Shown: positions 21,000-59,611 of the stretch, piece by piece | Layout: each line of letters begins with the position of its first letter | Position numbering within the stretch: position 1 is the stretch's first letter | From: Luscinia megarhynchos | Lineage: Eukaryota > Chordata > Aves > Passeriformes > Turdidae | Assembly (NCBI GenBank): GCA_034336665.1 | Contig: CM067576.1 | Span: 12,453,385 to 12,517,384, forward strand | Length of the DNA stretch: 64,000 nucleotides | Direction: 5' to 3' | Program-made: the position numbers and the translations under genes | The notes under the pieces: model-generated | Databases searched by the model: none | Told to the model about the DNA's origin: nothing | Seen by the model: only the letters and a program-made list of their open reading frames with translations

Positions 21000-21185
21000 C
21001 CCGGGCCAGCCCTCCCGCGGCACGGGCGGCCCGAGCCGGGCACAGGCACAGGCAGCGGGGCCGGGCGGGGCTGTCCCGGGCTGTCCCGGGCTGTCCCGGG
21101 CGGGGCAGAGGGAGGGGTGGCCGGGAAGGGCCGTCCCACCGCAGCGGAGCCGAGCGGAGCGGAGCGGGGAGCGGTGCTGGGGCGG

Positions 21186-21198
21186 ATGGCATCCCCGG
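21186..21198 (+). CDS. Candidate first coding exon of the DLC-like gene
   Basis: An ATG in the CpG island is followed by GCA TCC CCG G and then by a GTGAGG splice donor at 21,199. Joined to the exon at 27,203 this gives Met-Ala-Ser-Pro-Glu-Ile-Glu-Ala, exactly in phase with the SAM domain. The phase match, the island and the donor support it, but the exon is only 13 coding bases and the match could be chance. DLC-family short isoforms also start a few residues before the SAM domain. Confidence 0.4.
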
Positions 21199-21487
21199 GT
21201 GAGGATCCAGTGGGTGCTGTGGCAGATGACATCCCCAGTTGAGGATCCAGGTGAGGATCCAGTGGGTGCTGTGGCAGATGACATCCCCGGGTGAGGATCT
21301 AGGTGGGTGCTGTGGCAGATGACATCCCCAGCTGAGGATCCAGGTGAGGATCCAGGTGGGTGCTGTGGCAGATGACATCCCCAGGTCAGGATCCAGTGGG
21401 TGCTGTGGCAGATGACATCCCCAGGTCAGGATCCAGTGGGTGCTGTGGCAGATGACATCCCCGGGTGAGGATCCAGTGGGTGCTGCT
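21186..21487 (+). repeat. ~40-bp minisatellite, seven units
   Basis: Units starting ATG(A/G)CATCCCC occur at 21,186, 21,226, 21,278, 21,319, 21,372, 21,412 and 21,452. Spacing is 40-41 bp, or 52-53 bp where an extra GAGGATCCAGGT is present. Each unit carries the consensus GGTGAGGATCCAGTGGGTGCTG with small variations. The first unit contains the candidate start codon and splice donor of the DLC-like gene. Confidence 0.95.
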
Positions 21488-24400
21488 GTTTCCTAGCACT
21501 GCTTTGTTAGTGTGACAGCAGCTCTCCAGCTGTCAATGTTTTGAATCGTGCTTTTCCAGTAGCTGCTGCTTTTGCTGATTTGTTGGATGCACTTGGAAAG
21601 TTCCAGGCAGACTGTCTGACTTTGTTGCATATCTTCAAATATCAACAATCTCCATCAGGGTAGAGTGACCCAGTAAAAGAGTGTCCACTGCTCGGGGCTC
21701 AGCAGGCTCAGCACAGCACAGCCTTAGCAGGGCAAATAATCCAATTTGCTTTTAGATATAACCACTTACTGGGCAGTCTCTGGGGGGTTAAATAGTTCCT
21801 TAGACATAGGCTGAACCTGTATTATGCACTGTGGTGTTATTGGCATTTTGTATATTTAAAGAAAGCCTAGTGCTACGCAATGAAAGAGCACAGACAGTTC
21901 ACTTGTCATGGGGTTTGTTACTTCTGTGCTATAGGTTTATTGATATTGGCTCCAGTGGCAGCAGGCAGTACCCTCCGTGCTACAATTCCTCCCAGGAATC
22001 TTGCACCAAGTGTTTCTCAATCATGTACAAGGGTCCTGTGAAAAAACACCCATAAGGAGCTTCTGCGTCAGAGAGATGTGGGATCTGTTCCCACTTCACA
22101 GTGAAGCAACATAGCTGGGGTTAGATTGCAGGGAGATAAATCCCCTCTCTCACCCCACTTACACTCATTTCTGCTGAAGCTGATGTGAATTAGGTACTAC
22201 TTTCCTTGAGCCCTGTGAAATTCCCATAGAGCAAACACTACTTTCTGTAACTTACTTGGAAGTAATTAAAAGATCAGCCAGCACTGACAAGCCTGTTAAT
22301 GTGGTCTGCAAAGAAAATGCCTTTAAAACTTCTCTGGGTCCCAAGAACCAACAGGGGTGGCAAATGACAAGGACCCAAGTAAAGACCTTACTATCAGCTT
22401 GGGAGTCCTGGTAATCAGCTTGGGAGCTGATGCCAAGGAGCTGGATAAAGATGCAATTAAGGTTGCCACAAAGTTCTGGGATACATTGCAGTTCCCAGCT
22501 GTGATAACTGAAGAGTTGGCTGCAGTTCCAAAACACCAGCATGATAGTAAAGTAGGAATGAAAGGACAAATATCTTGGCCTTTTCATTTTCCAGACATTT
22601 ATGTTCACTATCTGCATGGAGCCTAAGTTATCCTGGCTAAACTCCAAGCTATAATCTCTTTTTTTTTCCCTCCCTCTTCCTTGAGTGGGTTAGTAAAGTA
22701 CAATTAAGCTTTGATATTTTGCATTGCACAAGGGAAAACAGAATAAACATTTCCACTTCTTAATGATCCATCTTAGCTCTTGGAGAGTTTGACAGTTTTA
22801 CAAGTCCCTGACTGCTTATCTTGGTCAGTGCAAACACCCTTCTTTGAAAGCATTGCATTTGAATCTTCAGCATGGAGCAGACATCATGTTCCAACTCTCT
22901 TTTAAAGTAGAAGGATATAATGTAAATAAAAACAGTTATTAAAATCATGTCACAGGTGAAATGCAGTGTTGAACACCTTCAGAAATCAGAGTTCTAGCAC
23001 AGGAAATGCATTTTTCACAGTGTGTGCATAAAATGAAATGCCTCATTAGCAGCTGTAAGTCACAGGGAAGTTACATCAATTCTTACAGCCATAGGAAGAT
23101 GCATAAACTAGAAAGATGTGATGGGAGGCTCATGATTTGATGTTCAAATGGAACCTGAAAACCCCTTGTCACTTCCACCACTGCCAGCACAACCAGGAAT
23201 GACAGGATCTGAGTGAGAGCGTGAAGGACCTGCCAGTTCACAGCCCAGGCCTCCTGAGCTGTAGGGAAAATGAGTTTGGCGTGTGGCTGCCCAGCATGCA
23301 CGGGGCCTGTTGGCTCCAGCTCTGGGGGGGCTGGGGGATGGCAGCTGGGATTGTCAGTGATGAGAGGAGGCTGAGTGTTCCCCTGTGAGGCACAACAGGC
23401 AGCTTTTGAGGTGGGACCCTGGGCACCTGCCTGTCTGTGGCTGTTGAGGAGGATTACTACCATTTAGAGAAAAAAAGTCTTCCTGTATAATGACCGAGGT
23501 TGGGAAAGAGCAAAATCTTTGGATTTTTTTTTATTATTTTCTGTTTCGTTACAGAGTGGTGCAATGAGCAGTCAAAGTGAGGAGTGAATCCTACCCTCTG
23601 TTCTGTTCTCCTGTCTACTGGGCATGTTGAGAAATCCTTTCTTTGCCACAAGCACCACACTTGCACCCTACAGAAAAGGGGTAGTAACTAATGCAGGAGT
23701 GCTGCAGTTAGCAAGAAAACCTCTCCAACTGTTCTTCCTGCCATGGTTTTGGAAGGCATTCAGACTTAAATCCCTTTAATGAATGAAGTCCTGATCACCA
23801 TGTGATTTCTACCTGTTGAAACTGGAAAACTATTTTGGATGGAAATAGAAGTAATGCATCTACTATTGATTTTAAAAATCTGTTTAAAATTTTCTTTGAA
23901 ATAGACCTACAATGAGACAGCTCTGTGAAAAGCAACACATTTAGGTCAAGGTTTCACAGCTGGCTGAGCCCCCTGGCCTGAGCTGGCAGCTGTACACTTC
24001 TACAGCCCTCCCTGCATGGACCCACCAGTGCCCTTGTCCTGCCACTGGAACCTGTCAGAACATGTGGTAGCCAATTCAAAAAGCTAAAACTTCTTAGCTC
24101 TCACCTTGCCAAACAGAAGGGCCTCATTCCCTGCCAGTTTGGCTGCCAGGCCCTGCTGGCATGGCTCGGGTGTCGGTGAGGAGGGGCAGGAGCTCGCAGC
24201 TGGGGAATGGAAGAGATCTCCTGAGAGTCACACTGCATCCTGGCAGCAAGCTTCACTGTGCTGGTGCTTTCAAATAGAACTTGATATTCTCCCATTTTAC
24301 TTAGAGTGTTTTAAAATTTAAAGTACAGTTGGATGTTCTTCTTCAGCTGAAGTTAGTGATCAGCTCATATTACAGCTGACTTGCCTGTTTGATATAGAGC

Positions 24401-25127
24401 TGTCAGTGGTTTTGGATGCTGCCTCTGCCTCGTTGTTAGGAAAATGCTGCTTCTTGTGAGGAAAACATCTCAAAGACAATGCCCAGATCCCAGTACAGGT
24501 ACTTTTTCTTTATTGCAAACAATCTGGTTAACACTGCTGTTCGTTCTGATGGGATTTAATTCACACTGTATCATCTGGTTTCCAGGTTCCTGAGGAGTGT
24601 GGGTGCTGCAGTCTGCAGGCAGGACAGTGCTCAGTTGGGATACAGGGTTTTCAGCCCAGGTGGCTGCAGGAAGGGTGTCCCAGCCCAGCTGGTGGAGGAG
24701 CTGGGGCTCCATTAGAAGGGAGCAGTGGGAAGGGCAGCCCATGCAGGGCAGGTGTGCTGGGCTGGGGCACAGGCAGCTGGGGCACGGCCAGGACTCTGAG
24801 CGCTCTTTGCAGGGGGCCTGGCTGAGTGTTCAGCACAAAACGTACCTGTGGGACACGGTACAGAGGGTGCAGCAGGCGTTGCTGTGCTCTGAGTTGTCTC
24901 TCATAAACATCTGGTAGTAACCTACCAGCCTTAGCCCATGGGAAAATAGCTGGCTTGGCATGGAAAACTTGCTGGCAGCCTCTAACCTAGGAATATTAGG
25001 CTTTGCAGATTTTTTTTCATCTGCTTAATTATGAAATAAGTTCAGGAGAGGGAGGTGACACATTGAGGTTGCTCTGCTATTTCAGTTGTGCAGATAGCAC
25101 CCAAAAGATGTTAAAAAGTTGTCATCC
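21488..25127. other. Putative first intron or intergenic DNA, no gene recognised
   Basis: If the candidate first exon at 21,186 is real, this is the first part of the 6-kb first intron of the DLC-like gene. An 89-codon open frame at 22,357-22,626 was examined and not recognised as any family. An AATAAA occurs at about 22,742. Confidence 0.5.
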
Positions 25128-25263
25128 TCTTGTCTAGACCAGTCTTGCTCCAAGCCCTGTTCAGCCTGGCCTTGAACATTTCCAGGGATGGGGCAGCCAC
25201 AGCTTCTCTGGGCAACCTGTGCCAGGGCCTCCCCACCCTGTCTTCCTAATATCTAATCCAAAC
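25128..25263 (-). mobile_element. CR1 LINE fragment
   Basis: The plus strand reads as the reverse complement of the CR1 3' region, with recognisable words such as GGCCTTGAACATTTCCAGGG, ATGGGGCAGCCACAGCTTCT and TCTTCCTAATATCTAATCC. It is a 5'-truncated relic without coding capacity. Confidence 0.8.
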
Positions 25264-27202
25264 ATGCTCTGTGATTGTGCAAAGGTATGTTAAAAGGCCT
25301 GAAGATTTACCTCAGCAAAGAAAATTTCCCCAGCTCCTCTGTCCATGTTCTATGGAAGAGGCCATCTGTAAGTATGACAATGCTGTTATATTTTCAGTCA
25401 TATTCGTTGAAAATATCCTCGCTAGGTGCAAAATACTTTTCTGTCTTATTTTTCTGTTCTTTTTTCGTCACTTTTCATGGCTTAGCTTGGTCTAAAAATA
25501 GAGTTGTGCTTTTGATGTGTTGGGAACTAGGGAAGCTTCAGCCCCTAGAGAGTCCCTGTCTGAGCTCAGGATTGCTGAGCACAGGCTCTGAATGAGTAGG
25601 CTGAGGTCTGGAATGATGACAGCTACAGTTTCTCCACAGCTGAGATGCCTGAAGTGAATCTGTTGGGTTTTTCTAAATGAAAATCAATTTGTCTTTGGGA
25701 AGACTTTTGGTGTTAGACTGATCATCCTCTTGGCTCTTTTCTACAAATAGCTTTTCTTTGCATTTTTTGCTCTGTGAATACAATGCTTGTCTTTTATTGT
25801 CTCCAGTAAATGCTGTATTGTGGTAAAGATTATGATAAATTATGACACTAAGTATAGCAATAAATATAGGCATAGTGTATATAGGCTGTTGTAGAAGAAA
25901 ATAGTTTCTGTTCTGCAGTGTGAAAAAAGGAAGAAATTCATGCATCTATTTTGGTGTAAAAATATCCCAGTCTTCCTGTGCTACCACTTTATTCTCAGAT
26001 GAAAAAGCCATACAGTTTTGTCCAGGGAAGCCTCTGTTAGAATGGCATTGTCCAATTTGATTAAGTGATAATGGAAACTATTTTAAGTTTTAATGTAGAA
26101 AAATAAAATCAGGGAAGTTATGTGATATTTTTGGTTAGTGTCTAATTGTACTGATGACTTACAATTGAGAAGTCTGAGCAAAGCAAGCAGTGAATTTGAA
26201 CAGATATGTATGTGAAGTGCCTTGGAATCCTAATCTAAGTGTATGTGTAAAGAAAATAGTATTAAGGAACAGCTCTGTTCCTCTGGCCTGTCATGCTACA
26301 CTTTAAGATGCTTTAAAAATATTTCTCTCTACTGAGCGTGCTGGATTTTAAGGTAGCCCGAAAATGTTCCTTTCAAAGAAGTCTTTGCCTTAAGGCTGGC
26401 GTCTGGTGTAACACAAGCTGGGGTGCACGCAGACCTACAGAAAGTGTATTTGAGAATCCTCTCTCCCACAGACATTCCCAGTTTGGCAGAGCTCAGAGCC
26501 TGAGGGCAGGTACTCAGTCTGACCTGCTTGTGTTTTTGAGGAGTCTGGTGTGTGATTCTGTGAGGTTGTATCCTGCTCTGCCTCTGTGGGAATGTTTCAG
26601 CGCTGGCCTTCAGCAGCTGTCACAGAGTGAGCAGCTCGCTCCTGGCAGCTGCAGTGGCTGCCAAGCTGCGTAGGTAGTTGGCAAGGAAATAAATATTGAT
26701 AGACCCTAGCAACAGGTACTCCTGAGAACTCTGGTTCTGGGAATGCTTAGGCTGTGTCCGGTGTTACTAAAGTTGTGAGAGCATTTTAAGTTTATTTATA
26801 GGGTTTGTTTGCGTCTTATCACCATCTCTCAGCACTGGCATGCACGAGCAGGCTTTGCCGTGAGGGCACAGATGTGTGTCCCACACCCTGCTCTGGTGAC
26901 TCATTTGGACTTGCAGCAGATGCTCCACTGCCCCCAGCTCAGGGACAGCTGATTTACCCCTGTGTGACATCCCAAGTATGTGTTCAAATCTGTTCTCTCC
27001 TGTGTTAGCTTATCTCTGCTATAGTGGAATGGCTATTGCAGAGCTGTGTGCATGGAAGTGCATTGGATACAAGGATGTATTCCTCTTTAGCAATATCCTA
27101 AAAACAATTACAGACAAGATTCTCAGAGAGTGTGCCAGGTGAAATGAGCTTATCACTGACTGGTGAGCACTGTCCATGAACAATTGTGTGTTCTCATTGC
27201 AG
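25264..27202. other. Putative intron 1 (3' part), no feature recognised
   Basis: This is AT-rich sequence leading to the splice acceptor of the first conserved DLC-like exon at 27,203. An alternative first exon could lie here; none with the required one-base overhang was convincing. Confidence 0.5.
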
Positions 27203-27274
27203 AAATTGAAGCCAGAGAAGCCTGCGACTGGCTGAGAGCTGCTGGATTTCCCCAGTACGCTCAGCTGTTTGAAG
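27203..27274 (+). CDS. DLC-like exon: SAM2 domain, first part
   Basis: The acceptor is TTCTCATTGCAG and the donor GTATGA. It encodes (E)IEAREACDWLRAAGFPQYAQ and the next three residues, nearly identical to the start of the DLC1 and STARD13 SAM domains. It begins two bases into a codon, so an upstream coding exon ending in one base is required. Confidence 0.92.
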
Positions 27275-30200
27275 GTATGATCACAAAGACTTGCCAAGCA
27301 GCTGACACTGAATTCGAATGGAATTGTTCACATAAATAATATATTTCAGAACCTGACACTTTTGATGGAAGCACTTCCAAATTCTGTTATATCTACATGC
27401 AAACCTGTAGAAAAGTAGTGACCTGGTGTGTTCTCTTGCAGAAGGGACATCTCAGCAGGGACTCAGTAGAATTCAATAAAGGACCAAATCTTCCCTGGTT
27501 TTCTTTTCCTATTGTTAGACTGTAACTCAGTCAAATTTCAGCTTTTGTTATTTTTAGTTGCTTATAATTTTTTCAGGCTCTTTTTCTTGTTGTACTAGAG
27601 GTGATGTTTCCAACCACTGATTGCAACCAAAACTCCTCTGAGGCTCTCCAGCCTGTGATCTGAGTGAGATTGCTTTATTGGTGTTTTGAAAAAGAATGTT
27701 GGGAAAAATCATCTTGCAATCATAATTGTTCAGAAGAAACACTCAGCAGCAGCCAGACAGTCAAAAATGAAATTTCAGCATGTTTTCATGTTGTTAAAAC
27801 TACAAAGAGTGCTTGTTTCTTGGGAGGAGGTATGGATTTGTTGAGAACTTGTATGTATTTGAGGCCACACTTGTGCATATGCAGTAAAACTATTCTTCTT
27901 TAAAATAAGTTTTTTGTTACAAACAATGAAAGTAACAAAAGCTAATCTATTTTTAAGAAGGATTTTATCAAAGAACTACAGCTAAAAGAACAACATTAAC
28001 TGCTCTCATTCCCACCTCCCCTGGTCCCTGCAAAATCCAAAATTTTAAGTCAAGCCTGTAGAGCTGGGTTTGAAGGCTGGAAATGCTTTCTGTCTGCCTG
28101 CAGCAGATTTTATTCTATAGGCTGTTTGTTGGAAATGTGCATTGCCATGCTTCTGGAAAATTAATCCTCTGCATTACCTTGCTGCTTATGCAGTGTCCTG
28201 ACCTGGCTAGGAAAATGGAGCTTATAAAATAAGCTAAGAAAATACATGGAGACCTCAGTGGTTCCCTCGTGTGCAAGGCCAAATCTCGGAGCTGAACCAC
28301 TGAACTCTTCAGCTTCCAGCCCAGTGTGTTGTGTCAGGCTGCCTAGAGCTCAGAGAATGCATCTCACATGCTGCATTGCACCTCACCATGGCAGAGGCTC
28401 ATGTAGAACAATCCCAGCTTTATTCTGTAGAAGGTGCAGAGAGCCAAAGCAAATCTAAAGGTTATTTTGCTTTTCTTGTCTATGGCCAAGCTCCTGGAAA
28501 TGCAGAAGGGCTTGTCCACCTGTAAGAACAGCAGCAAGCAGATCCCTGCATGTATTCTCCCACTTGCCCTAGGGAAGGATGCTTGCATGAATGTACAGCT
28601 ATAGAAATAGAAGTAGTTTCATTTCACCTGTGATAAATGAGTTGCAAAATTGAAAGTTTTTACAATTACATCTCAGGTTTCAGGTTCAACTTCTTTGTTC
28701 ACAGATATGCAGTTTCCCATTGATGTAGAAACTGTGAGGAGAGATCATGAATTTTTAGATGGAGATGCGATTGAATCATTGTTCAGGTAAACATTAATCA
28801 TGAATCATCTTTGGTACCTCCAGGCCCCACAGTTTTTGTTATTCATCTTTTCATGCCTCTGTTTTTGTCAGAGACTAACAAAGTCACCAAACCTGTGACT
28901 GAAGGAAATCACTTAAGCACATAGTTTAGTGCCACTGAGTTGGTTGTTTTAGGAATTTAAAGGTAAAGTAAGCACATGTCTGCACTTCTTCTTTTGCCAA
29001 GCTCTCAGGGATTTTGCACTGAGCATTAAATATTTTTTTTGTAATGTGAAATGTCTGCAAGCTGGTTAAAAATAGCCAGTTCCCTGCAAGCATGACAGGC
29101 TGTTCTCTAGGATCACATGTAATGGAGTACAGGAATTTCCTCCAACTTCTGTTCCAGCAGATAGACAGAAAAAAATTATCTGCATGAGATCTGTTCTATT
29201 TTCCTGAGTATTTTTTGGGTGAGAAGCAAAGGTATTGGTTTGAAGCTATTGCTTTGCCACAGCTGTTCAGAGCCCACAAGTGAACCTGCACTGTCAGTGC
29301 CAAGTCAGACTCACTGCCCTGTGGAATTTCCCCATGGAAGAGTGCCAGGGCAGTGTGAGGCTTCTGCTTCAATTGGTACTGCAGTTACTGAAACTATCTC
29401 ATGATGAGATTGTTTAGCAGAGTTTCTTTAGCAGAAAGGACGATTTCTAACACTGGAAAGTTCCTCTCCTGGTGAAGTGTTCTGGCCCTTTTCTGTGCTG
29501 TCAGGTCGCCTGAATTCCAGCTCTGCCTGTACCAGAGCACCAAGAGGAGCTGTTCACACACACATCTCAAAAGCACAGCAGATATTAGAGAACTTGGGGA
29601 ATATTTTGTTTCTTGGTATCACTTCTGTCCTTAGTGCTCCTTGGAGACTCTCAGTGTGCCTCCTGTTGATGCCACCTGTTGTTTGACAACTAAGTGATTG
29701 ACTAGTTTGGGACCTTATTGATTCCACAAGCTTTAATTAAAATGATAGATAGTACAGTCCTTCCAGGGATACAAGTTAATGTCTTGGTTTTTAATTTTTT
29801 TTTTCAAGAAGCCCACACAGAGTTTCATTTCTTTTCAAAATCTTAAACCAATATGATGTTTTTCACAATCATGAAAGCTAATAATATGATTTTTTAAATT
29901 AAGTTATTGATTATGGCTGTCTTCTCTAGTTTTAAGATGGCAGAACTGGAAGTGTGAACATTCTGGTGTTGTTATTGGTGCTGGTTTTGGGGACCACTAT
30001 ATGGGAGCCTCTAACAGAATGTCAATCTTTGACAACAGTGAAGACTTCATGGTAGATCACAACTAGCTTGGTGCATGTTTGTTTTCAAGAAATAAAATAG
30101 TTGAAATTTAAAACTCCTGTGTTTTTTCTCAAACCCTAGAAGGTTGAACACATTGAACAAGTATGCATCAATGAAAGTGGAAATAAGCCGTGATAGGAAA

Positions 30201-33200
30201 CGGGTATGTCTGTAACACACAGTTCCTGTTCTAATTAAAGATGTGTTTAGCTATTGTATCAAGCACCTGGGTTTAAAAGCAGATGAAGGATTAGCAATTT
30301 CTGAACGTTCCTTTCTATTCCATTTCTATTCCATCCCACAAAGCTCTGCTATTTGCATTTTATGTTGAGAAAACATAGGGATGGAGATTGCAGCTACATA
30401 ATGTCTGAAACTTTGCAAGATAGGTTAGGGTTGGCTTTTGAAACACTTTTAAAATTTCATTTGGCATGTTACTATCCAACAGTTGCCCCAAATCCCCGTC
30501 TCAACGTGGCTATCATTGCTTTCCTAAGTAGTTTCCCACCTTATTTAAGTGCTGAAAGTGGAAGTTCACTCCTGCTGACTAAACAGACATGAGAAGGGCA
30601 ATCCAAATGTTCAGCCAGTACAAGCTGGGCAGGTTTTAGCTGTGCTGCCTTTGTGCTCTGCTGCTGCAGCTAAAACAGAGTGGTAGCCACAGCTTGGCTG
30701 GGCAGCACAGGTCTGTGAAGCCTCTGAGCCACCGTGGATTAACTGCAGGGCTAGTGAGAAAATGCCATTTCCTGGAAAAAGGTCTGGGTTTTGGAGAGTT
30801 CTGCTCTTTGGTTAGGGCAGAATGAGGCAAGAGAGCGCACAGAGAAGAGACAGGTGGCTCCCATCTTGCTGATGTTTCACTGTCCCTCAGAATGGGAACA
30901 ATCCAGCAAAGGTGGCACCTGGTGCAGCTGGCAAGGGAGGCTGAGGGCTCCAAAAAGGTGCCACACACACTGATGCTGCTGCAGTCCCACAGCTAAACAC
31001 TTCTTTACCTGAAAATGGATGAATTTTGGTCACACAAGTGTGAGTGTTTGATCTGTTTGACTTTAGGAATGGCAGTAAACCCAAGACAATTATCTTTCAA
31101 AACCCTTGGATTTGCCACATAACAGGACTTTTCACCCTTAGATCAAATCTGTCACCTTTTCCTGTGGTAAACTTCCCAGATTTATGAGCATGCTTGGGCA
31201 TCACTTGTAAGCATATTTTCAACTAACTTAGGGCAGATCTTCAGGGACTGAATGGTCGCATTTCCCTATGTTGGTCTTGGGGGTTTGGAGTTTGGCAGAA
31301 AACTTTATATGTTAATTTGTTTTTTTGTAATTTAAAATTTGCCAAACTTTTCCCTTGAACTGGTTTTGTTTTTTTTTCTCCTTCTAAGAGTGACGACTCT
31401 GAGGATGATGAGCCTTGTGCCATAAGTGACAGGTGGGCTTATGAGAGGTGCACTCAGCGCTGGTCTCGCATTGACAGCCTGCCAGCTTTTCCAGCAGAGG
31501 AAGGTGCTGGTGCCTCCACCCCAGGCAGCCCAATACTGAAGATCATCAACAACCAGAACAGTGTCTGTCTGGATCATGGTGAGAAGCATGATGTGTCCTC
31601 AATTCACAGCACCAGCAGTGCTGACAGTGACATTGTTAACTCCCAAAAACCTTTTGAAGATGTGGAAACCAGCACGAGTTCCTCAAGATGTTCCTCAGTT
31701 AAGGTGCCTTCACAGGACTCTGCTTTTAGTTGTTCTCCTCCCCCCAGTGAATTTTTAAATATCACTAGTGAGGAGAAGCTTTTGGATAAGTCACCATCTA
31801 AAAAGAGGAAGAGCCTTCTAAAGAAAATGGAGAAGCTGCACTTAAGGAGCTGCAATTTAAGGAGTGGTCAGACAAAGGCCAGACCCATAATAAGTGAACC
31901 TGTTCTTCTGGAAGGACTTAATGAAGAAAAGATGAAGATGCTGAACTGTGTAAATATTTCTGACCTCTCTGGCATCCGAACAAAGAACAATTCTTCCTTT
32001 TCTCCCCAGAGCTGCAATAGCAGCAATCAGTCTGTAAATAGCAGCACAGGGAGCACTCCAAGTCCTGTTATAAAACCAGGCAGCCCCTGTGAAGGAAGGG
32101 GGATGTATGCAGAGCACATGGACTCCAGCAAGCTGGGCAATGATCTATCCCAGCAAAACCTAAAAAATGACATGACATTACAAAAGAACCAGATGTTTCA
32201 AATACCACAAGGCCATAAACCTGGCACCTTCCCCACAGTACTTACAGACAGCTCCCTGTCTCCAGCAGACAGCTGCTCTGTCAACTGGAGAACTGGGAGT
32301 TTCCACGGGTGCAGGAGGAGCAGGAGCAGCAGCGGTTCCAAGGATGCCAGAGCCCCCAGGAGCTGCCAGTCAGGCAGAGACAACAGGCTGAGTGTGTATG
32401 ACAACCTGCCCAGCAGTGACCTGGAGAGCCTGCAGGCTGCACCAGCCGGGGACGACGATGTCTTTTCAGAGCTGAACAGCGTCATAGCAGATGTCAATGG
32501 TCTCAGAAAGTTGGTTGATCAGTGGACAGAGAAGTTCTCAGATGATGGGGATTCTTACTTTGCCAGTGACTTGACCTCTTTGTATCCACCCTTCCCTAAA
32601 GAAAGCTGTCTTGGAACAGAGGGCTCAGAAGATAAGGCAGCAGGGGAGGCTGAGGGAGAGAGCAGCTGTGGCCTGGGCAAGGAGATCGGTTCTGCAGACC
32701 TGGCATGCATCACAGACTCTAAAAAGACCAACAGGTCAGCCATCATTGGGTTTGTCTTTGGTTCTCTCCACTCAAAATGTAATTGATTTGCCAGAACAAA
32801 GTATTCTAAAGTCTGTCCTAGGTAGCAGGGTCTGCACTGCTGGTGGCAGGTGCCACTCCACAGGTACCAATATCTGACCTCTGCTGAAAGTAGGACACTC
32901 GTAGTCATGAGCACTCAGGCATTGGAATCAGGGATACTGGTGAAAGCCAGGGTAAAAGCAGCTTGGATTTTCTCAGGCTGCTCAAAGGAAAACAGGAGAG
33001 GAATAATTAATAACTCAGCTATCACCTGCTGTTGTGCACAGAGGAGTACGTGGGAAATGTGATGCTTTGGTGAAAGCATGTTTACAAGAGGTGTTACCTT
33101 CCTTGCACCAATGAAATTACTTCTATCCTCAGTTCCACGATCAAGTCTATAAAAGTATGCTTATTTTTTAAGTAAAGGCTTTTGCCTTTTGCTTCTTTTT

Positions 33201-36200
33201 TGCCTCATGAGGCTATATTTTTTCACTCCATCCTAGCTTGATAGCAGCAGTTTGCATTGCCAGTATTGCTCCTGGATGGGAAGTACCTTATTTAAGTTCA
33301 ACTAACTGCAGGTCATTTAGAGTCCTGGGTGCTTCACAGATGCAGGTAGAAAACAAGGATGGTGGAAACAGTCCTAAGCTTAAACCATATTTATCCTGTA
33401 GGCATGGGAAGCAAGAGTGGTGTGTGGAAGAGAGTGTGAACCTGGAAAGCCTTTCCCTCCAGACTGATGGCCAGTCAGCTGCCCAGCTGGCCCGCACACA
33501 AAAGCTGGCACTGTTGAAACTCACAGCTTTAATGGACAGATATTCCCCTTCCAGTAAGCAGGGCTGGAACTGGTAAGTTGTCTGATATTAAAGCAACCTG
33601 AGCTGGAAAGAGAGCAGTTGATGTAAGCATGTGAATTTCCTTGTCTGCCTACATTGCACATGTTCAAGATGAAGAATTTCATCCTATTAAATTGCCAGCA
33701 GCTTCATGTTATTTCCATGGCTCCAGGATTTCCTCTGCTCTGGGCTGTACTTTGGCCCCTCACTGCTGATTGTGCTGTTACTGATTTTAAGGCACATCAT
33801 AGTTTCTCTTTAAATCTGCCCAAGATTTAAATCTGCAGGGCTTTGTCAGAGGACCGTCCCAGGGACTGTGGGACCTGAGATGAGAATTGGCTGAACTGGG
33901 AATCCAGCCCTTGAGTGCTGTGTCTGTTTGAACTAAGCCAGTGACAATTTCAGACACTTCAGAGGACTTAGATACATCAGTCAGCATTTTGTGATAGGGA
34001 GTTGATACTTGAATACAGAAAGAATGGATAAACCCTGCAGTGGCATGAAAGGATGGAATGTATTCCCCATGAGGATGCTTTATTAAAGTTAATTTCAGCA
34101 ATGAAATGAAGAAGTCATCCCTGTAATTGCCTTTGCTGATTTTCTCTCCCTTCTGATGCTGTGTGTACAGGTACGTGGCAGAATTTGGGGTTGTGACAAG
34201 GTACAGCTCAGCCGTGTCTGATGAGTGTAAAGCAACAGGTGGAATGTGCTGGATACCTAGTAAGCTGCATCTACTGGTTTTCATTTCCAGGACCATACCA
34301 AAGTTCATTAAAAAACCAAAAGCCTCAGACTACAAGGACAAAAATGTGTTTGGGGTTCCTTTACTTCTGAATGTGCAGCGAACAAGCCACCCCCTGCCCA
34401 ATGGCATCCTGCAAGCCCTGGAGTATCTGAGAAGCCACTTTCTTGACCAGGTATGGACTGGAGGCAGCCCAGAGGAGCTGTGGGACATGAACAGATCTGC
34501 TCCAGGGAATCAGATTCTCTTTCATACTTTTTGAAGGACTTCGTGCCCCCTAAGGCTCTCAATAGGCTGAAAGGTATAGATCTGAGCAGGTGGCCTGTGA
34601 GGAAATACCACTGTTGATTCCCTCTGGGAATACCTTTAGCCCTGTGCTGTGTTTTTGTGCCTTCCCTCACTGAAACCCTCTGCAGGCATGTCTCTTGGTG
34701 CAGGCAGTCAGGCTGTCTTTGCCTGGGGAGGTGTCATGTCTCTGCTCCCCAAGGAGGCAAATCTGCCAGACAGTGTCATGTCATTGTTCCTTCTGTTCTG
34801 TGGCTGCTGGTAGTGCCCGAGCTAATGTGAAAATTAATCTTGTTTCAGCTGAAATGCACCACTAAGCAGAGAGGAAACATTGCCTGTAGCAACTTTTTCT
34901 GGAGCTCAGCTCTGTATTTGTCCCCTAAGTGGAGATGGCAGAGGAAGTGTGTGCTGTATGTAGTATTTCCATAGCATAGCTGCAGAAATGAGGACCTTTT
35001 GACATGAGACATATCAGTTAAAGAGAGGACTTTTCTTCTGGTGCTTTGCCATTGTCTAGGTGTGTAATGTCACACCAAAGTGCACAAGTGTGTGAGTTCT
35101 GTGAAGTGACAGTACAAGTGTTTTTCATTTTGAGGTTCTGGTACCCATTCAGTTTATATACATAAACCAGAGTGTAAATACTGTCTCAGTGGCACAGAGT
35201 AAAACTGTCACCAGAAGCTTTGGAGGGGTCAAACTCATGGGAAGCTCCTAAATCTTGCTCAGTTGACAATCACATTAAAAAGAAAACCAAATTTTCCCTC
35301 AAAATGGCATCTGCCCTTTACCAGCCTGTGGAAGGGCTAGATGTATTGAATGTGTCAGGTGTTACAAGGAGCCTTGTGGATCTCACAGTCAGTCTGTGTG
35401 AGCCAGCACTTGATGAATGTTTGTGTTTGGTGGACACACACTGGTGAATTTGAAATTTAGAGTTGCCATGTGTAAACATAGCCTTCCCAAGAAAATGGAC
35501 ATATGTCAATGGTAGTGATTTTAAAAGGTAAAGTGAGTACTTTTGTATTAAATGAAAGCCAAATGAACATGAAAATTGGTTTGTCACAGCTGATTCTGTG
35601 GGCATCAGCTGTGGTTTGCCTCTGAGGAATGTCCAGGTGGCTTCTAACAATACAAAAGTATTTTAGTGTTCAATTCTATAGGATATTTGTTATTACAAGG
35701 AAGGTGAAGGACCACTTGTTTGTCAAAATTTTGATTCCCAATGACTCTTCTCTTTGTCTCTAATAATTTCTTTTACCCACAGGTTGGCCTGTTCCGAAAA
35801 TCTGGTGTTAAATCCAGGATTCTGTCTTTAAGGGAAATGAATGAAACCAACCCAAACAATGTGTGTTACGAAGGGCAGTCAGCCTTTGACGTGGCAGATA
35901 TGGTGAAGCAGTATTTCCGAGACCTTCCTGAGCCTATATTTACCAGCAGGCTCTGTGAGTCCTTCCTCCACATCTACCAATGTAGGTACCAAAAGCTGTC
36001 ATTTTCCAATGCCTTGCATGTCCTGATACTCAGCTGTATAAGGCAGTGGCCAGACTAGGACTAGTGCCAAGTGCCCCGTGTAGTCAGAGGAGGTTTCTGA
36101 CAAGATGAGTTCATTGTGGCTCTGGACTTTGAGAGCTTCCCATCTGTGTCCTATGAACCAGCCAGTTCTCTTCCCTGAAGGATGAGTAATGAAATGCAGT

Positions 36201-39200
36201 AGCAGCCCCCTTAAGCTGTGCTTGTAAACAGTCATTTCCTTATGCGAAATTAAGATATAACCTGGTCCCCTTGTTCATGGGATGACATAGCTCCTTGTGC
36301 GAGAAGATCTGATATATTGATGACATTTCTTTATTAAGGTGGCCAAGAACAGCTGCTGTGAAACAGCTGGGAAATGCCAGCAGCTTTCTGCCTATGCTCA
36401 CACTCTTACTGTCCTTGAGACTCAACCCAAAAACCAAGGAAACACAAAGCTGAAATATTGCAGTTAATATTGCAGTTTGAATACAGTTTAAACAGGTTCT
36501 ATTTCCAGTACTTTGCCCTCAAGGAATTGACTTTCGAAAAGCACATGGACTGGGGAAGGAACTTGAAGTAGGGCTAATAATGTTGTTGGGACAGACAGGT
36601 TTATTCTGCTTTTGAGAAAAGGTTTTGAAAGACAAAGTGTGAGCTTTGTGGGAGGGACTGGTTTTGCAGACTAACCCGTGTGGCTTTTATTGATCTAAGT
36701 CAATGAGCAGCTGCTGTCCTGTGCACAGTGGAGGTTCATGAAAGTTCTGTTGGGTTTAATTTCATCACCTGTCAGGGTTTTAAAATCTGGTCTGAAAATT
36801 ATTTATGTGTTTGAAGTAAGTTTTCTTCTTGCATTCACAAATCGTCCTTTGTAAGGAGGTCTACAATTCCCATCTCTAAAGGATGTATAATTGTTTTCCT
36901 CTAATTATCGTAATCTGGCTACTGTCTACCTCCTATCTTGTTTCAGGAGAGAACAGCAAATGCCCAAATTCTATTCATCCCACTCACCCATCTTCTGCCA
37001 GATGTGACTGGAGCAAGTGCACAGATTAAATTACTCTTTTGGAGATAAGAACTGTGCTGCTTTCATCAAGCAGTGTGTTTTGTGTGTTCTATATATGTGC
37101 TTCTACCTGAAGGGAAGGAGAAGTGATCTTCCACCCTTTGCAGTGATGTTAATTGGAGAAATGCTTGTGCTAGGGATGCATGGCAGCATGAGCCAGACCC
37201 ACCCTCCTGCTGGAGCTGTTTGGGCAGACAGTCTCGGTGGGGGCTGGTGTGAATTAAAATCTGTTGGCAAAGCACTGCTCTCCGAATTGAGTTATCTGAG
37301 AGCATCTGTTCTCTTCATGCTTGAAGCTGAAAGGAAAAGACATTAGAGCAGCTACCTGCAGCAGCTACCTGCTCCAAAGTATCACTGCAGAGTAATATTT
37401 TATGGGGAGACAGACCCTTATTTGGATTGTAACTCAGTTCAGGATATGTTCATTAGCGTGGTGTTCAAGATAAATTGCAAGTCAGGCAGCAGCATCCCTG
37501 GGTGTGAACATGCACTTGACAGGCAGTTGGAGAAATGGTTCATGTTTGATGGGATAATGGCCTTTCCTTGTCTGCTGTGAGCATGGGACAAGGAAATGGA
37601 TGAACCTACAAGCTCAGTGCCCTGCTTGGGACCCTGCTGATGGATGCTCCTACTGTAAGTCATGTGTGATTTTTGTCATGGTTCATGTTTTCAGATGTGC
37701 CCAAGGACCAGCAGTTTCAGGCTGTCCAGGCTGCTATTCTCCTTCTCCCAAAGGAAAACAGAGAAGCTCTGAAAATCCTCCTGTTCTTCCTGCGAGATGT
37801 GGTGGCTTTTGTTGAGGAAAACCAGATGACCCCAACCAACATTGCTGTGTGTCTTGCACCTTCTTTGTTTCACCTCAACACCCTGAGGCGGGACAGTTCC
37901 TCCTCCTCAACCAGGTATTGGCACCTTGATGCTGGCACTGCTGCTGTTCATAGTGTTCTTGCTGGATTAATGCTTTCTGTAGCTGGCCTAGGCTCACTGT
38001 CTGACTTTGAGGGGGAAATAGGCTGTGTGTGCCTTGGGGTTTGCCTTCAGTCTGATTGCTCAGGTGCAGCAGGAGCTGCAGTGCATGGAGCTGCTCACTG
38101 CCCAGTGCAGAGGGCTGTGGTAATGTCTCATTGCCATGCTCCTGACCAGTCTGTCTGTGTCCCTCACCACTACTGCACTCCCCCTGGTTGCCCAGGAGCC
38201 CAGCATGTGGCCCACTGCTAGCATTAAAGTGGTGTTGGCCATTGGAAATTTGCTCCTGCACTGGCAGTCTGAGCTCAGGTGTAGCCTTAAGGCCCTGCAG
38301 ATACCTGGCAGCTTGAGACAGCTACTGGTTCTCCTGGTTGATAAGGGGGATCATTCCTACCAAATTGAGCCATAGGGATTCTGTAAATTTATCTTAATAA
38401 GTAAAAGTATCTGGATTGCATAACATCCCCTGATGTACGTGCAGGGAGGAAGGTGCCCGTAGGGCCAAAGTAGACAAATAATCTCTGAGAGCATTCATGT
38501 CTTATCTGGCCTCCTGAGGCAGATCTGTTTGCTCTGCTCGTGCTCCTGGGCTGTGGGCAGACAGAGCAGGGCAGGAGAGCACAACTGGCTGTGCAGGAGG
38601 CATCGTGCTCCCCACAGCGCAGCGAGCTGAACGCCTCACTTGGGGATCTGCAGGGGAGCTCTGGTCCCAAAGCAGAAGCTGTCAGATGTGCTGTTGGCAT
38701 CTTTTAGGCTCTGGATAGCACAGGGGAAGGGGAAGGAAACACTGAGGATTTTCTTTTGAATGTCACAAAGCATCAGAAGATGCCTCAGGCATCCGTGTGC
38801 TGAGCTGGCACACAGCAAGGGAGCCACGGGGCCACTGCGAGGGCACCTGGGGATGTGATGGAGCAGCAGCAGGTCCTGCTGGATTGCTGTGCTCTCTGAG
38901 CTCCTAGGAGCTGTTCCTCTTTGCTTTACATCAACACTGTTCTGAAACATCAGAACCAAAGATAGCAATGGAGTTTTCTCTTTGTTGTCAGTGTTTAGAA
39001 GCCAGGATGCTTTGAAGCTTTAGCTCTGCTGTAACTGTGCATTAATGGCTTGGTGCAGGGTTCCCACTTCAAAGGGTTCAAGCTGACAGGTCTGACTCTG
39101 AGGAGCAGCACTGAGGACTATTATCTTCCACCCAATTTTCAAGCCATTTGGCAGGAATGCACATAGATAAAAGTTTCAGAAGCCAGGACTAATGATATAA

Positions 39201-39727
39201 TACCACTAGCATGAATTAAAAGAGGGGACTGTTTTTGGAATGTGTTGGGAATGGTTTAGGCCAAAGGATTTAAAAGGTTCTACATGGCCTTTGCAGGTTC
39301 CAAAGGAGTTTGATATTGAAGATTATACACAAATAAGCTTGGGGTAATTTTGTTGTTCTTGGCCATTGTTGTTCTTGGCCAAGTGTGTGACGTGTTTGGG
39401 GAATAAATTCCTTGACTTGCCTTTCTTGGGTTTCCATTACTACTGGTCAGCAGTGCCCTGGACACCCTTGGGATATGCTGGGAGGGATTGACCTTCAGTA
39501 GTCACATTGCATGAACCCTACATGGCACATGCAGGTCCTTCAGTGCAGTGTTTTCTGTCTGGTTTCCCATCACTTTGCTCCTCCTCTTTCCTTTCACCTT
39601 CTCCTCTCCTAGATCCAGTCAGAGGAAGTGCAGCTTGGGGAAGCCAGACCAGAGAGAGCTGAATGAGAACCTGGCAGCAACGCAGGGCTTGGCCCACATG
39701 ATAATGGAGTGCAACAGGCTCTTCCAG
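27203..39727 (+). CDS. DLC1-family RhoGAP (SAM2 - Ser-rich - RhoGAP), START domain not found
   Basis: Nine exons join in one frame: 27,203-27,274; 28,705-28,786; 30,140-30,203; 31,389-32,734; 33,402-33,572; 34,291-34,450; 35,783-35,981; 37,695-37,914; 39,613-39,727. The protein (about 810 residues from the SAM domain on) begins with a DLC-type SAM2 domain (EACDWLRAAGFPQYAQLFE), then a roughly 500-residue serine-rich linker with KPGTFP, NWRTGSFHG and VYDNLP motifs, then a RhoGAP domain with the arginine finger in GLFRKSG, the DLPEP loop and NQMTPTN. By family knowledge it should accelerate GTP hydrolysis on RhoA-type GTPases at focal adhesions. It resembles DLC1 most in the SAM and its downstream acidic stretch (RSDDSEDDEPCAIS), but is divergent throughout. 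All junctions are GT/AG and phases are conserved. Family members end in a START domain of about 200 residues, which is missing here. Without a further splice the last exon runs on for 37 codons to a stop at 39,839-39,841. It could be a functional START-less paralogue or a gene beginning to decay. Confidence 0.85.
28705..28786 (+). CDS. DLC-like exon: SAM2 domain, middle
   Basis: The acceptor is TTCACAG and the donor GTAAAC. It encodes DMQFPIDVETVRRDHEFLDG and on to ESLFR, aligning with the second SAM exon of DLC1. Confidence 0.92.
29940..30110 (+). pseudogene. Possible processed pseudogene fragment in a DLC-like intron
   Basis: An intronic stretch encodes a non-random-looking C-terminus (GVVIGAGFGDHYMGASNRMS, then a Phe-Asp-Asn-rich end) followed by TAG, a short 3' tail, an AATAAA at about 30,091 and A-rich sequence. 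This looks like the 3' end of a retrocopied mRNA. I do not recognise the parent gene. Confidence 0.3.
30140..30203 (+). CDS. DLC-like exon: SAM2 domain, end
   Basis: The acceptor is AAACCCTAG and the donor GTATGT. It encodes RLNTLNKYASMKVEISRDRK and one further Arg. RLNTLNK is a hallmark of the family. Confidence 0.92.
31389..32734 (+). CDS. DLC-like large exon: serine-rich linker
   Basis: This is a 1,346-bp exon, open throughout, from the acceptor CTTCTAAG to the donor CAG|GTCAGC. It starts SDDSEDDEPCAIS, matching DLC1, and keeps scattered family landmarks: KKRKSLLKKMEKL, DHKPGTFP-like HKPGTFPTVLT, SVNWRTGSFHG, and SVYDNLPS, the counterpart of the tensin-binding tyrosine segment of DLC1. 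Also kept are an acidic helix SELNSVIADVNGLRKL in the place of the DLC1 LD-like motif, and DQWTEKFSDDGDS. The rest is diverged. A large uninterrupted frame implies selection for coding until recently. Confidence 0.9.
33402..33572 (+). CDS. DLC-like exon before the GAP domain
   Basis: The acceptor is TTTATCCTGTAG and the donor GTAAGT. It encodes (R)HGKQEWCVEESVNLESLSLQ through QKLALLKLTALMDRYSPSSK to a split Trp, matching the DLC1 exon with LLKLTALLEKYTPSNK. Confidence 0.88.
34291..34450 (+). CDS. DLC-like exon: RhoGAP entry
   Basis: The acceptor is TTTTCATTTCCAG and the donor GTATGG. It encodes TIPKFIKKPKASDYKDKNVF, then GVPLLLNVQRT and LRSHFLDQ. VFGVPL and the NVQRT strand open the RhoGAP fold. 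Confidence 0.92.
35783..35981 (+). CDS. DLC-like exon: RhoGAP arginine finger
   Basis: The acceptor is TTTTACCCACAG and the donor GTAGGT. It encodes VGLFRKSGVKSRI, whose first Arg is the catalytic arginine finger (Arg677 in human DLC1). YEGQSAFDVADMVKQYFRDL and PEP follow. All GAP landmarks are intact. Confidence 0.94.
37695..37914 (+). CDS. DLC-like exon: RhoGAP core
   Basis: The acceptor is CATGTTTTCAG and the donor GTATTG. It encodes (Y)VPKDQQFQAVQAAILLLPKE through EENQMTPTNIAVCLAPSLFH to a serine run SSSSS. NQMTPTN and CLAPSLF are family signatures; the Asn there contacts the GTPase. Confidence 0.94.
39613..39727 (+). CDS. DLC-like last recognised exon
   Basis: The acceptor is CTCCTCTCCTAG and the donor GTATGT. 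It encodes SSQRKCSLGKPDQRELNENL then AATQGLAHMIMECNRLFQ, which in DLC1 precedes the linker to the START domain. If the donor is not used, translation continues 37 residues to a stop at 39,839-39,841. Confidence 0.92.
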
Positions 39728-41896
39728 GTATGTCACTCACTGTCACCAAGCAAAAGCTCTGGGCATCCTGGGCGGGAGAGCAGCTTGGAGCAGCAGCTGG
39801 GCAATGTCCCTGCCAGCCCAGCTGCTGCTCTGTGCCTGTGACAGATGGGAGTCCTGCTGCTGCCACCAAAGAGAAAATGAGTGTCATTTTCTCCTCCATT
39901 CCCCCCTCCATCCCCAGCTTGTTGGGGCTTGGGGACAGCTTGGAGAGCACCTGTGGGGCAGTGGCTGCCATGTGCCCGGGCAGGGAAGCTCTGGCCATCC
40001 CTGCTGGAGGGAGGGTTGAAGTTTTGCTGCTGGGGCCTGGCCAGATCAACAGCCATGCTTGGGCCTGGCCACTGACTCCAGTAATCTGAACCTGGACCTT
40101 GGCCCACAGACCGACTTCCCAGCTTGACCACGGCCTTTGCCCGTCATGATGGACTTGCCTAGTGATCCTCAGAGTGTGGCTAACCCTGGTTGCTGTCCCT
40201 GGACCTGTTCCTGACCTCCCCTGCTGTCTCACCTTCCTGGCTCTACCTCGGACCTCATCGCCGTGGATGTGTCTGATGATCTTTACTCTTGGCTGACCCT
40301 GGCTGCCCCTCTGGCCCAGCTGCAGCAGCGTGGGACAGGGCAGCTGGCCTGCCAGCTCTCTTGTCCCACTTGACACCTGGCCCCTTTCCCTCAGGGGTGC
40401 TGTCCACACTCCAACAGTCAGCTCAGACCTTCTCGTGCTCTGCTCCAGTTCCTCATCTGGGCAGGGAACACTGCCCCATGGCTCCCCTGCACTGACACAT
40501 GGCCCTGCCCCAGGGCTCCCCCAGCACTGATTCCACAACCAGCACCTGGCTTCTTAGTGACACCCCACCCCAGGACAGCTGGGGTTCCCAGGGGTCTGAT
40601 CCCTGCATGCATCAGTCTCCAGCCCAGACAGGGCTCCTGAGTGCCCCCTCCACCCCCAGCCCAGCCATGGGTCCCTGTTTCCCCAGCAGTGGCCTGAGCC
40701 CCTCTGCCCAGCTCTGAGGCCCCTCTGCCCGCCCTGTACCCTCTGCACAGAGCTGCCCCATGGAATAGCCCCATGGGAGTTCTGAACTGCCCTTGCACAC
40801 ATGGACATTCCACACATCCTGCTATGACCATTGCTGACTCCAACCCTGAGCTGTGGGGCTGCCCCTCACCCCTGGAGTGCTGGGGTCCTGCTGGTGTGAC
40901 CCCCACCCTGCAGGGTCAGCATTTAGTGCTGAGACTCAGGGATTGCCTGGAGAGGGCTGTCCCACTTCTGCTGGAGACTACAGCTCAGTGTGGCAGCCTC
41001 TGCTATGCCAGTGCCTGGAGGAACACCCAGGTCTGCTACTCTGGACCCAGACCTGGACTGGTCACTGTGGCCACCCCTGGAGTGTGGCTGACACTGCTTC
41101 TGCCACTGAGCCTGAGCGTGTGTGGCCCTTGAGCAGGACTCGGCCCCGTGGGCAGGACTCGTCACCACTGCCACCCCCAGCCTGCCTGGCTGCCCCAGGT
41201 AGGGTGGGATGGGCCCTGGCTGGGGAGGCACTGCCCAGCCCTGCCTCAACTCTGGGAGCAGGGAGAGCATGGCCATGGCACAGGGGTGGGTGCAGCTGGG
41301 GGACAGGGAGCACAGCACACGGCCTGGGCAGCTGCTGACGGGACATGGCTGTCACCCTGTGGCACCAGTGCCAGGCCTGGGGGTTTGTGGGCAGTGCTCA
41401 GCCACTGGGAGAGTGCCTTTGCACAGGTGCTGGACATGAGGTGCTGGACACTGACCAGCTGTGAGAGCCGAGCCCTCCCCAGCTCAGGACACGGGAGAAC
41501 CTCATACACATCTCTTGTATCTATATATACAATATATAGATGTATGCACATGCATATGAATATGTGCATACATATACACACATGTATGTGTCAGTGAGCA
41601 CCTGCATCAATGCACCAGCTTCTGTCCAGTGGTAGCATAGCTGCATTTTGTGCTGCTTTAGGACTCTGAAATTTTTTTTAGGATGCTCACAGAGCCTCCA
41701 ACAAACCCCAAGGCAAAGGCAGGAGCTGTGGCTCCTTGTAGTTTCCCAAGATTTTCATGCACTGCACAAAGTGGTTTGCAACTCCATAGGGATTGAAAAC
41801 ATTGCTGCTGAGGGGGAAGGCATTTCCCTTGTGTTTTCCTCAGAGGGAATGCAGTTTAACTGATCTGCTCCTCCCCTGGGCCTCCTACTCCTCCAG
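39728..41896 (+). other. GC-rich sequence after the last DLC-like exon
   Basis: This is a 2.1-kb block unusually rich in CCTGG, CCCAG and CTGCC words, from which START-domain exons are absent. Frames on both strands are long only because of high GC. Between 41,510 and 41,590 there is an AT-rich patch with a perfect 10-bp hairpin (41,519-41,541). Confidence 0.6.
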
Positions 41897-41975
41897 GTGG
41901 AACTGCTGGCTGCCTCCCCCCACCATCACAGATGACATCAAAGGCTGGGTGACTTGCTTATACGTGGCACCTAAG
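41897..41975 (+). pseudogene. Candidate eroded START-domain exon
   Basis: A good acceptor (CCTCCTACTCCTCCAG) precedes a segment whose second half reads DDIKGWVTCLYVAPK up to a GTAAAG donor. STARD13 has KGWVTC and DLC1 KGWVSY at the start of START, with a Lys-Lys at the exon end. Entered from the preceding exon in phase 0, the frame stops after VELLAASPHHHR; the KGWVTC reading is in the +1 frame. The match is only six residues, so this is tentative. Confidence 0.3.
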
Positions 41976-42253
41976 GTAAAGTGGATGGAGGGAGTATGGA
42001 TCAGAGTACCATTGGCTGTGGGAGTGTGGGTGGCTGAAGGGTTTCCTGGAGGTACCCTTGGGTGTTCTGAGTTCATGGCTTTGGCTCCTTCACCGAGAAT
42101 TGCTCTGAGCTGTGCTCACAAGCCACTTGTCTGCCTCTATCTGCAGCTGCTTGAAGCCACACTCCTTTTCTCTCCTTTACCCTGCCCCTCTACTGTTTTT
42201 CCCCTTACCACAACCCCACTCCAACAGACAGACAACTCCAGTTGTTTAGTCCC

Positions 42254-42259
42254 TTTATT
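42254..42259 (-). terminator. RARS1: RARS1 polyadenylation signal
   Basis: TTTATT on the plus strand is AATAAA on the minus strand, beginning 20 bases past the RARS1 stop codon. The 3' UTR would be very short, around 40 bases. No other AATAAA on the minus strand was noted closer to the stop. Confidence 0.7.
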
Positions 42260-42278
42260 GTCATTCCACAGGGAACAG

Positions 42279-58164
<15,886 letters not shown>

Positions 58165-59544: not shown

Positions 59545-59611
59545 TCACACATCATCTGCAGAAAGCGTTGGGATGTTTATTCTTGGCCGTGTGAAAAATG
59601 CCATTTTCTCT
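59545..59611 (-). CDS. WWC1: WWC1 last coding exon
   Basis: It encodes (R)[21 protein letters not shown] and TGA at 59,545-59,547. The acceptor is GATCTTTTTTCAG. The ADDV end is the PDZ-binding motif. Confidence 0.97.

Follow-up and report, generated by a model that had tools for sequence, protein, structure and literature searches.

Which member of the DLC family of Rho GTPase-activating proteins (RhoGAPs) lies beside RARS1 in the nightingale genome, and why does it end where its relatives continue into a START domain? The gene is contained in a 64,000-nucleotide stretch of the Luscinia megarhynchos assembly GCA_034336665.1 (CM067576.1), here called the window, to whose positions all coordinates refer. 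A first-pass annotation of this DNA had proposed an old fourth paralogue next to DLC1, STARD13 and STARD8 that was kept in birds and lost in mammals. We think it probable that jawed vertebrates have a fourth DLC RhoGAP, of which this gene is the orthologue in birds, and that after the split from crocodiles the bird orthologue lost its START domain and an acidic residue of its LD motif and gained a stop exon; its GTPase-activating (GAP) domain is likely to be active.

The window gene is a real gene. Nine exons with GT-AG splice sites between 27203 and 39727 of the forward strand join in phase and free of stops into an 809-amino acid protein with the order SAM2, Ser-rich linker and RhoGAP, just as first annotated, and Pfam agrees, with SAM_2 (E 1.2e-7) and RhoGAP (E 1.1e-36) above the cut-off and no START in this protein. 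The SAM domain begins in exon 2 (27203-27274), continues through exon 3 (28705-28786) and ends in exon 4 (30140-30203). Exon 5 (31389-32734) encodes the Ser-rich linker with a YDN site and the altered LD motif (Asn435); this interval is open in a single forward frame, the remaining two containing 19 and 39 stops, and none of 1000 base shuffles was open. Exon 6 (33402-33572) precedes the RhoGAP domain, which starts in exon 7 (34291-34450), carries the arginine finger Arg636 (GLFRKSG) in exon 8 (35783-35981) and runs through exon 9 (37695-37914) to the end of the region in exon 10 (39613-39727, ...MECNRLFQ). Addition of a putative first coding exon at 21186-21198 (ATG...G, phase 1) and of a last exon at 40110-40127, which encodes TDFPA and a stop where relatives continue into START, gives an open model of 11 exons and 819 amino acids (MASPEIEARE...LFQTDFPA). 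The start at 21186, already favoured by the first-pass annotation, lies within a minisatellite and has an in-phase ATG and a GTGAGG donor; ATGGCATCCCCGG followed by GT splices in phase to exon 2 (MASP-E-IEARE), and the zebra finch isoform P0006 begins in the same manner (MTSPEIEARE). The end that had been placed at 41975 has to be moved. The widespread last exon is the one at 40110-40127, its TDFPA ending or a one-residue variant being found also in kiwi, ostrich, merganser, falcon and eagle, and near 41975 lies an exon for an alternative ending (41897-41935, forward strand, VELLAASPHHHR-stop), which matches VKLLPASPHHHR of other passerine predictions and stops at 41935.

A search of the nightingale's own genome with turtle DLC1 as query revealed four DLC loci, namely C7, C2, C8 and the window on C17. 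C7 is 89% identical to turtle DLC1, the START domain of C2 matches the STARD13 structure 2PSO with 392 bits, and C8 is by elimination STARD8, so that the bird's own counterparts of all three known genes are found elsewhere. The window protein belongs to the DLC (START-GAP) family by its DLC-type SAM_2 domain, its DLC1-like RhoGAP domain with arginine finger, its intron positions and its descent, and departs from it in two features, the C-terminal START domain and an LD motif with the conserved Asp. In a search of PDB sequences its top match was the DLC1 RhoGAP domain 3kuq (327 bits), followed by the SAM domains of DLC1 and STARD13 (88-96 bits). The intron positions match those of DLC1, as the window exons end at turtle DLC1 residues 36, 63, 85, 557, 616, 670, 736 and 807, and they are close to the exon limits at C7 and C2. 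For the zebra finch orthologue, AlphaFold2 predicts confident SAM and GAP domains and a helix across the LD region (mean predicted local distance difference test score of 57, with most of the linker below 50), and the top PDB match of this model is again 3KUQ. The GAP domain of the window protein is 93% identical to that of the turtle orthologue and 91% to that of the crocodile orthologue, as compared to 73% for turtle DLC1, 72% for STARD13 and 65% for STARD8. The gene shares with DLC1 (ARHGAP7) the SAM-linker-RhoGAP order, the intron positions, the arginine finger and the YDN site, but DLC1 forms a separate clade and has both START and the LD-motif residue Asp470. Likewise, STARD13 (DLC2) and STARD8 (DLC3), both present in the nightingale genome, resemble it in architecture as far as the GAP domain, but keep START in this same genome.

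Orthologues of the window gene are already predicted in databases. The best 120 of 2009 matches, which were those listed in a first protein search, are all from birds (84-93% identity) and are mostly named 'rho GTPase-activating protein 7-like' or RHG07. Among the best 120 of 1879 matches listed in a second search, confined to proteins of at least 963 amino acids, were orthologues from turtles, crocodile, tuatara, squamates, amphibians, coelacanth, lungfish, ray-finned fishes, sharks, chimaera and echidna as well as seven marsupial entries, with DLC1 coming after these; no placental orthologue was among them. A third search with a crocodile query and proteins of 300-953 amino acids (best 120 of 531 listed) added kiwi, ostrich, rhea, emu, goose and merganser. 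The resulting bird set comprises 195 entries (120 from the first, 2 from the second and 73 from the third search), which are entries rather than species and include several isoforms. For the clade as a whole we use the working name gene4, or DLC4. The proposal of a gene kept in birds and lost in mammals cannot be upheld in this form, as echidna and marsupials hold gene4 and so do sharks, fishes, amphibians and reptiles. Galliform orthologues were not seen among the matches listed, although geese, ratites and Neoaves were, which says nothing on loss. No zebrafish row was among the matches listed either; the coelacanth (P0174) and elephant shark (P0200) entries bear the name Si:dkeyp-23e4.3, which we take to be a zebrafish clone name. 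The string 'dkeyp-23e4.3' occurs in one paper of the open-licence literature searched (PMC8288007).

The phylogeny places the window gene outside the three known genes. In a maximum-likelihood tree (LG+G4, 53 rows, 818 columns with at least 70% of the rows occupied, no invertebrate outgroup), in which STARD13 and STARD8 were represented solely by the nightingale's own C2 and C8, the window gene and 37 relatives, from chimaera and sharks to marsupials, form one clade (38 of 38 rows, support 100/100), as expected for the old fourth paralogue that had been proposed. DLC1 from sharks to birds, including C7, forms another (13 of 13 rows, 100/99), and C2 and C8 fall outside both. The program warned of the long branches of C2 and C8, which meet and because of which their pairing carries little meaning, and of the odd residue make-up of the echidna row. 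A FastTree tree of 317 rows gave the same split into 291 gene4 rows, with all 195 bird entries among them, 24 DLC1 rows including C7, and C2 and C8. The gene4 clade broadly mirrors the species tree, with birds beside the crocodile, and as chimaera, shark, ray-finned and lobe-finned members join the birds in one clade, it predates the gnathostome radiation. These data support the view that the window gene is a separate old DLC paralogue and not an orthologue of DLC1, STARD13 or STARD8. An origin by whole-genome duplication is plausible; we infer it only, because the tree lacks an invertebrate root and synteny comes from the nightingale genome alone. The marsupial gene4 branch is long (0.45) and the residue make-up of echidna unusual, which we read as a sign that the gene may evolve fast in those mammals that retain it.

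The loss of START is common to all birds sampled. A START profile was positive in 94 of 95 non-bird gene4 entries, in 24 of 24 DLC1 rows and in C7, C2 and C8 (321-347 bits), whereas it was positive in none of the 195 bird gene4 entries, ratites and geese included, nor in the window protein. C2 and C8, together with as many as 13 further rows, were part of the seed of this profile and hence match by construction, while C7 stood outside the seed; the sole negative non-bird entry, P0240, is a fragment of 488 amino acids. A precomputed Pfam column, which is independent of the profile, gives START on no bird gene4 row listed. On the DNA level, matches of a DLC1 query to the nightingale genome reach residues 1077-1081, and thus through START, at C7, C2 and C8, but end at residue 879 at C17, where the last match (39602-39820) continues past the GAP exon into intron sequence and does not reach the main START exons. 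Most of the non-bird set derives from a search biased towards long proteins, and the short-protein search with the crocodile query served as a counter-check: reptile proteins without START, if they exist, would there be expected to rank above birds, but birds account for 119 of the 120 rows listed (best 120 of 531) and the remaining one is the 488-amino acid fragment.

Remnants of START were sought in the window downstream of the last GAP exon, as far as the RARS1 side (39728-42290), a stretch that contains no Ns. None of 18 comparisons with tail pieces of crocodile, tuatara and turtle, each set against 40 two-base-block shuffles, was significant. For the best two, both with turtle P0126 (40793-41032 and 40221-40298), 3 of 40 shuffles did equally well, and DDIKGWVTCLYVAPK at 41931-41990, which is suggestive by its position only, was equalled in its match to tuatara EKFKSWVTCPNLERVE by 7 of 40. 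Protein tails could be parsed for 189 of the 195 bird entries. TDFPA, or a variant of it by one residue, closes 33 of them (29 with TDFPA itself) and VK.LPAS.HHHR closes 10, while 117 stop at a bare V, for the most part where the record is marked partial, and the remainder have other ends. Since TDFPA is present in kiwi and merganser and TDFLA in ostrich, the stop exon probably dates back to the origin of crown birds. The cormorant tail LPDCCLDQVTNDFHETSILSTRA (23 residues) aligns right after the GAP domain with crocodile MPDYCLEQCGDDLHDQKVLSEGA; none of 1000 shuffles was as good against crocodile or turtle and 3 of 1000 were against tuatara. This tail was chosen by eye and is the sole significant one of six tried, the owl tails 'VPDCCL', for example, being equalled by 362-500 of 1000 shuffles. 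Judged by this alignment, the cormorant prediction retains a fossil of the exon leading into START.

Loss of the domain is accompanied by changes in residues that are otherwise conserved. Twelve sites are fixed in birds in the sense that at least 95% of the birds have departed from a residue that is conserved in at least 90% of the non-birds, and positions 435 and 717 are the most notable of these. At position 435, the acidic position of the LD motif, Asn is found in 196 of 196 bird rows, whereas Asp is present in 92 of 95 non-bird rows and in all 26 DLC1 and own rows; one gar row likewise has Asn. The equivalent Asp470 of DLC1 contacts Lys1544 of talin, and a D470K/E488K double mutant of DLC1 retains some binding to wild-type talin (both PMC4938799). 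The hydrophobic contact positions of the motif are retained or conservatively replaced in the bird gene, and position 440, mostly His elsewhere, is Asp in 196 of 196 bird rows and might compensate for Asn435. Because the double mutant still binds, the hydrophobic positions are kept and Asp440 is gained, Asn435 should weaken talin binding in birds rather than abolish it. Other functional sites are unchanged: the arginine-finger motif G[LI]FRKSG is found in 195 of 196 bird and 92 of 95 non-bird rows, the tensin-type YDN site in 196 of 196 bird rows, and SAM is retained in nearly all bird entries. The non-bird orthologues (such as crocodile P0125, turtle P0124, coelacanth P0174 and elephant shark P0200) share the clade and the SAM, linker and RhoGAP regions with the bird gene, but differ from it in carrying START (94 of 95) and, in most cases (92 of 95), the LD-motif Asp.

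Could the apparent novelty be explained in simpler ways? The database names would be accounted for if the gene were a one-to-one orthologue of DLC1, STARD13 or STARD8 that had been relocated beside RARS1, as DLC1 is itself known as Rho GTPase-activating protein 7. Yet the same genome contains three further START-bearing DLC loci, and gene4 and DLC1 form separate clades with sharks in each, which refutes identity with DLC1, identity with STARD13 or STARD8 being rejected with the nightingale's own sequences alone in the tree; we regard a relocated orthologue as extremely improbable. Nor is it at all probable that START is present but was missed owing to an assembly gap or poor annotation. It is true that 117 of the 189 bird tails stop at a bare V, which resembles an annotation cut. 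However, the window is free of Ns, the approximately 2.5 kb from the last GAP exon to the RARS1 side yield no significant START match, the same DLC1 search that finds START at three other loci finds none here, and the three bird gene4 rows among the best 120 of 1879 matches of at least 963 amino acids all lack the domain. A decaying pseudogene, finally, would agree with the lost domain, the fast stem branch of birds and the charge change in GAP, but it is at odds with the open frame in the window, the long homologues across birds, a GAP domain still 91% identical to that of crocodile, and intact splice sites and intron positions, and we consider it very unlikely.

The main rival is a protein that is folded but locked in an inactive state by its SAM domain for want of START, and that, instead of being an active GAP, would serve as a scaffold or compete for tensin-type partners. 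This would fit the loss of START in 195 of 195 bird entries of which nearly all keep SAM. It also has a published precedent. Drosophila Cv-c with SAM but without START is inactive in the ectoderm and a version lacking both is active, and the interpretation put forward by the authors is that the GAP is repressed by SAM and released by START; they also note that DLC1 deleted for START behaves as lack of function (PMC5854602). Like the bird protein, the engineered forms with START alone deleted have SAM and GAP but no START, and their inactivity would predict a silent bird protein. This prediction weighs against an active GAP, and three further observations weigh against parts of our interpretation. 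At position 717 in the GAP domain, 188 of 195 bird rows have Lys (three manakin entries and rhea have Glu), but all 94 non-bird rows and all 26 DLC1 and own rows counted have Asp, so that the GAP surface is altered as well. The bird stem is longer than the crocodile branch (0.155 versus 0.066), which would also fit relaxed constraint. By domain the respective lengths are 0.067 and 0.014 for SAM, 0.207 and 0.080 for the linker and 0.052 and 0.046 for GAP, with 0.027, 0.112 and 0.011 along the whole turtle path; SAM provides just 65 columns and no clear domain-specific pattern emerges. Moreover, the placement of the START loss after the crocodile split depends on one full-length crocodilian row (P0125). 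Then again, the near-invariance of the arginine-finger motif (195 of 196) is not something that a non-catalytic scaffold would need, and START-less constructs are reported to retain some activity in Malpighian tubules (PMC5854602). We therefore think a SAM-locked scaffold rather unlikely, and the kept catalytic residues lead us to favour an active Rho GAP freed of START control, in which SAM repression is weakened or lifted in another way.

How might such a protein work? In our interpretation, the bird lineage after the crocodile split lost START and the acidic LD residue and gained a short stop exon past the GAP domain. The protein would still accelerate GTP hydrolysis on a Rho-type GTPase via Arg636, and its central region would bring it to adhesions or membranes. 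The START domain of DLC1 binds phosphatidylserine, PLCD1 and caveolin-1 (PMC8561924), and in its absence the bird protein would lack the responses to lipid and to caveolin/PLCD1 that have been described in DLC1. Repression by SAM would be absent, weakened or relieved otherwise, for instance by phosphorylation of the linker. Going beyond this, we tentatively suggest, as a possibility that we would not yet favour, that the bird stem may have rebuilt a START-free RhoGAP, which dropped lipid and caveolin control along with part of the talin contact and changed its SAM domain and linker such that GAP works without START.

The surroundings of the gene agree with the location beside RARS1 and WWC1 that had been noted at the outset. 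RARS1 lies tail to tail with it on the minus strand, its C-terminal exon being contained in an open reading frame at 42570-43157 (158 bits to structures of cytoplasmic arginine-tRNA ligase), and farther out, likewise on the minus strand, are the C-terminal exons of what is presumably WWC1 (59545-61094, ...SADDV-stop). On the opposite side, the minisatellite in which the 21186 start is located (21173-21485, forward strand, units of 40/93 bp) contains seven MTSPGEDP-like start stretches. Its units bear repeated ATGs, five with an in-phase GT donor, and further first-exon candidates are found at 21226, 21278, 21319 and 21452; expansion of the repeat may thus multiply alternative first exons. An open reading frame at 22327-22626 (forward strand, ...KDLTISLGVLVISLGADAKELDKDAIKVATKFWDTLQFPAVITEELAAVPKHQHDSK) forms the N-terminal exon of two predicted passerine proteins (P0013 and P0074) and gave no match above the cut-off in a Pfam search.

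We found neither a fourth DLC gene nor a START-less bird DLC in the open-licence literature searched. An evolutionary study of the DLC START domain deals with three paralogues, represented by 123 DLC-1/2/3 orthologues from 46 vertebrate species (PMC7662654), and the DLC literature examined, of which this study is an example, treats the family as three START-bearing tumour suppressors; a fourth clade that extends from shark to marsupial lies outside this scheme. While the published START-deleted proteins are laboratory deletions, the bird form is natural, has undergone further changes and is common to kiwi, ostrich, geese and Neoaves. Given that published START deletions which bear SAM are described as inactive, birds hold a long-lived natural counterpart of a START-deleted RhoGAP, and the model in which START lifts SAM repression becomes testable on a protein that evolution has kept rather than on a truncation. 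Bird gene4 also offers a clean case of a regulatory domain that was lost while the enzyme core was preserved. Should birds indeed have rebuilt a START-free GAP, they would break the rule that a SAM-bearing DLC protein needs START.
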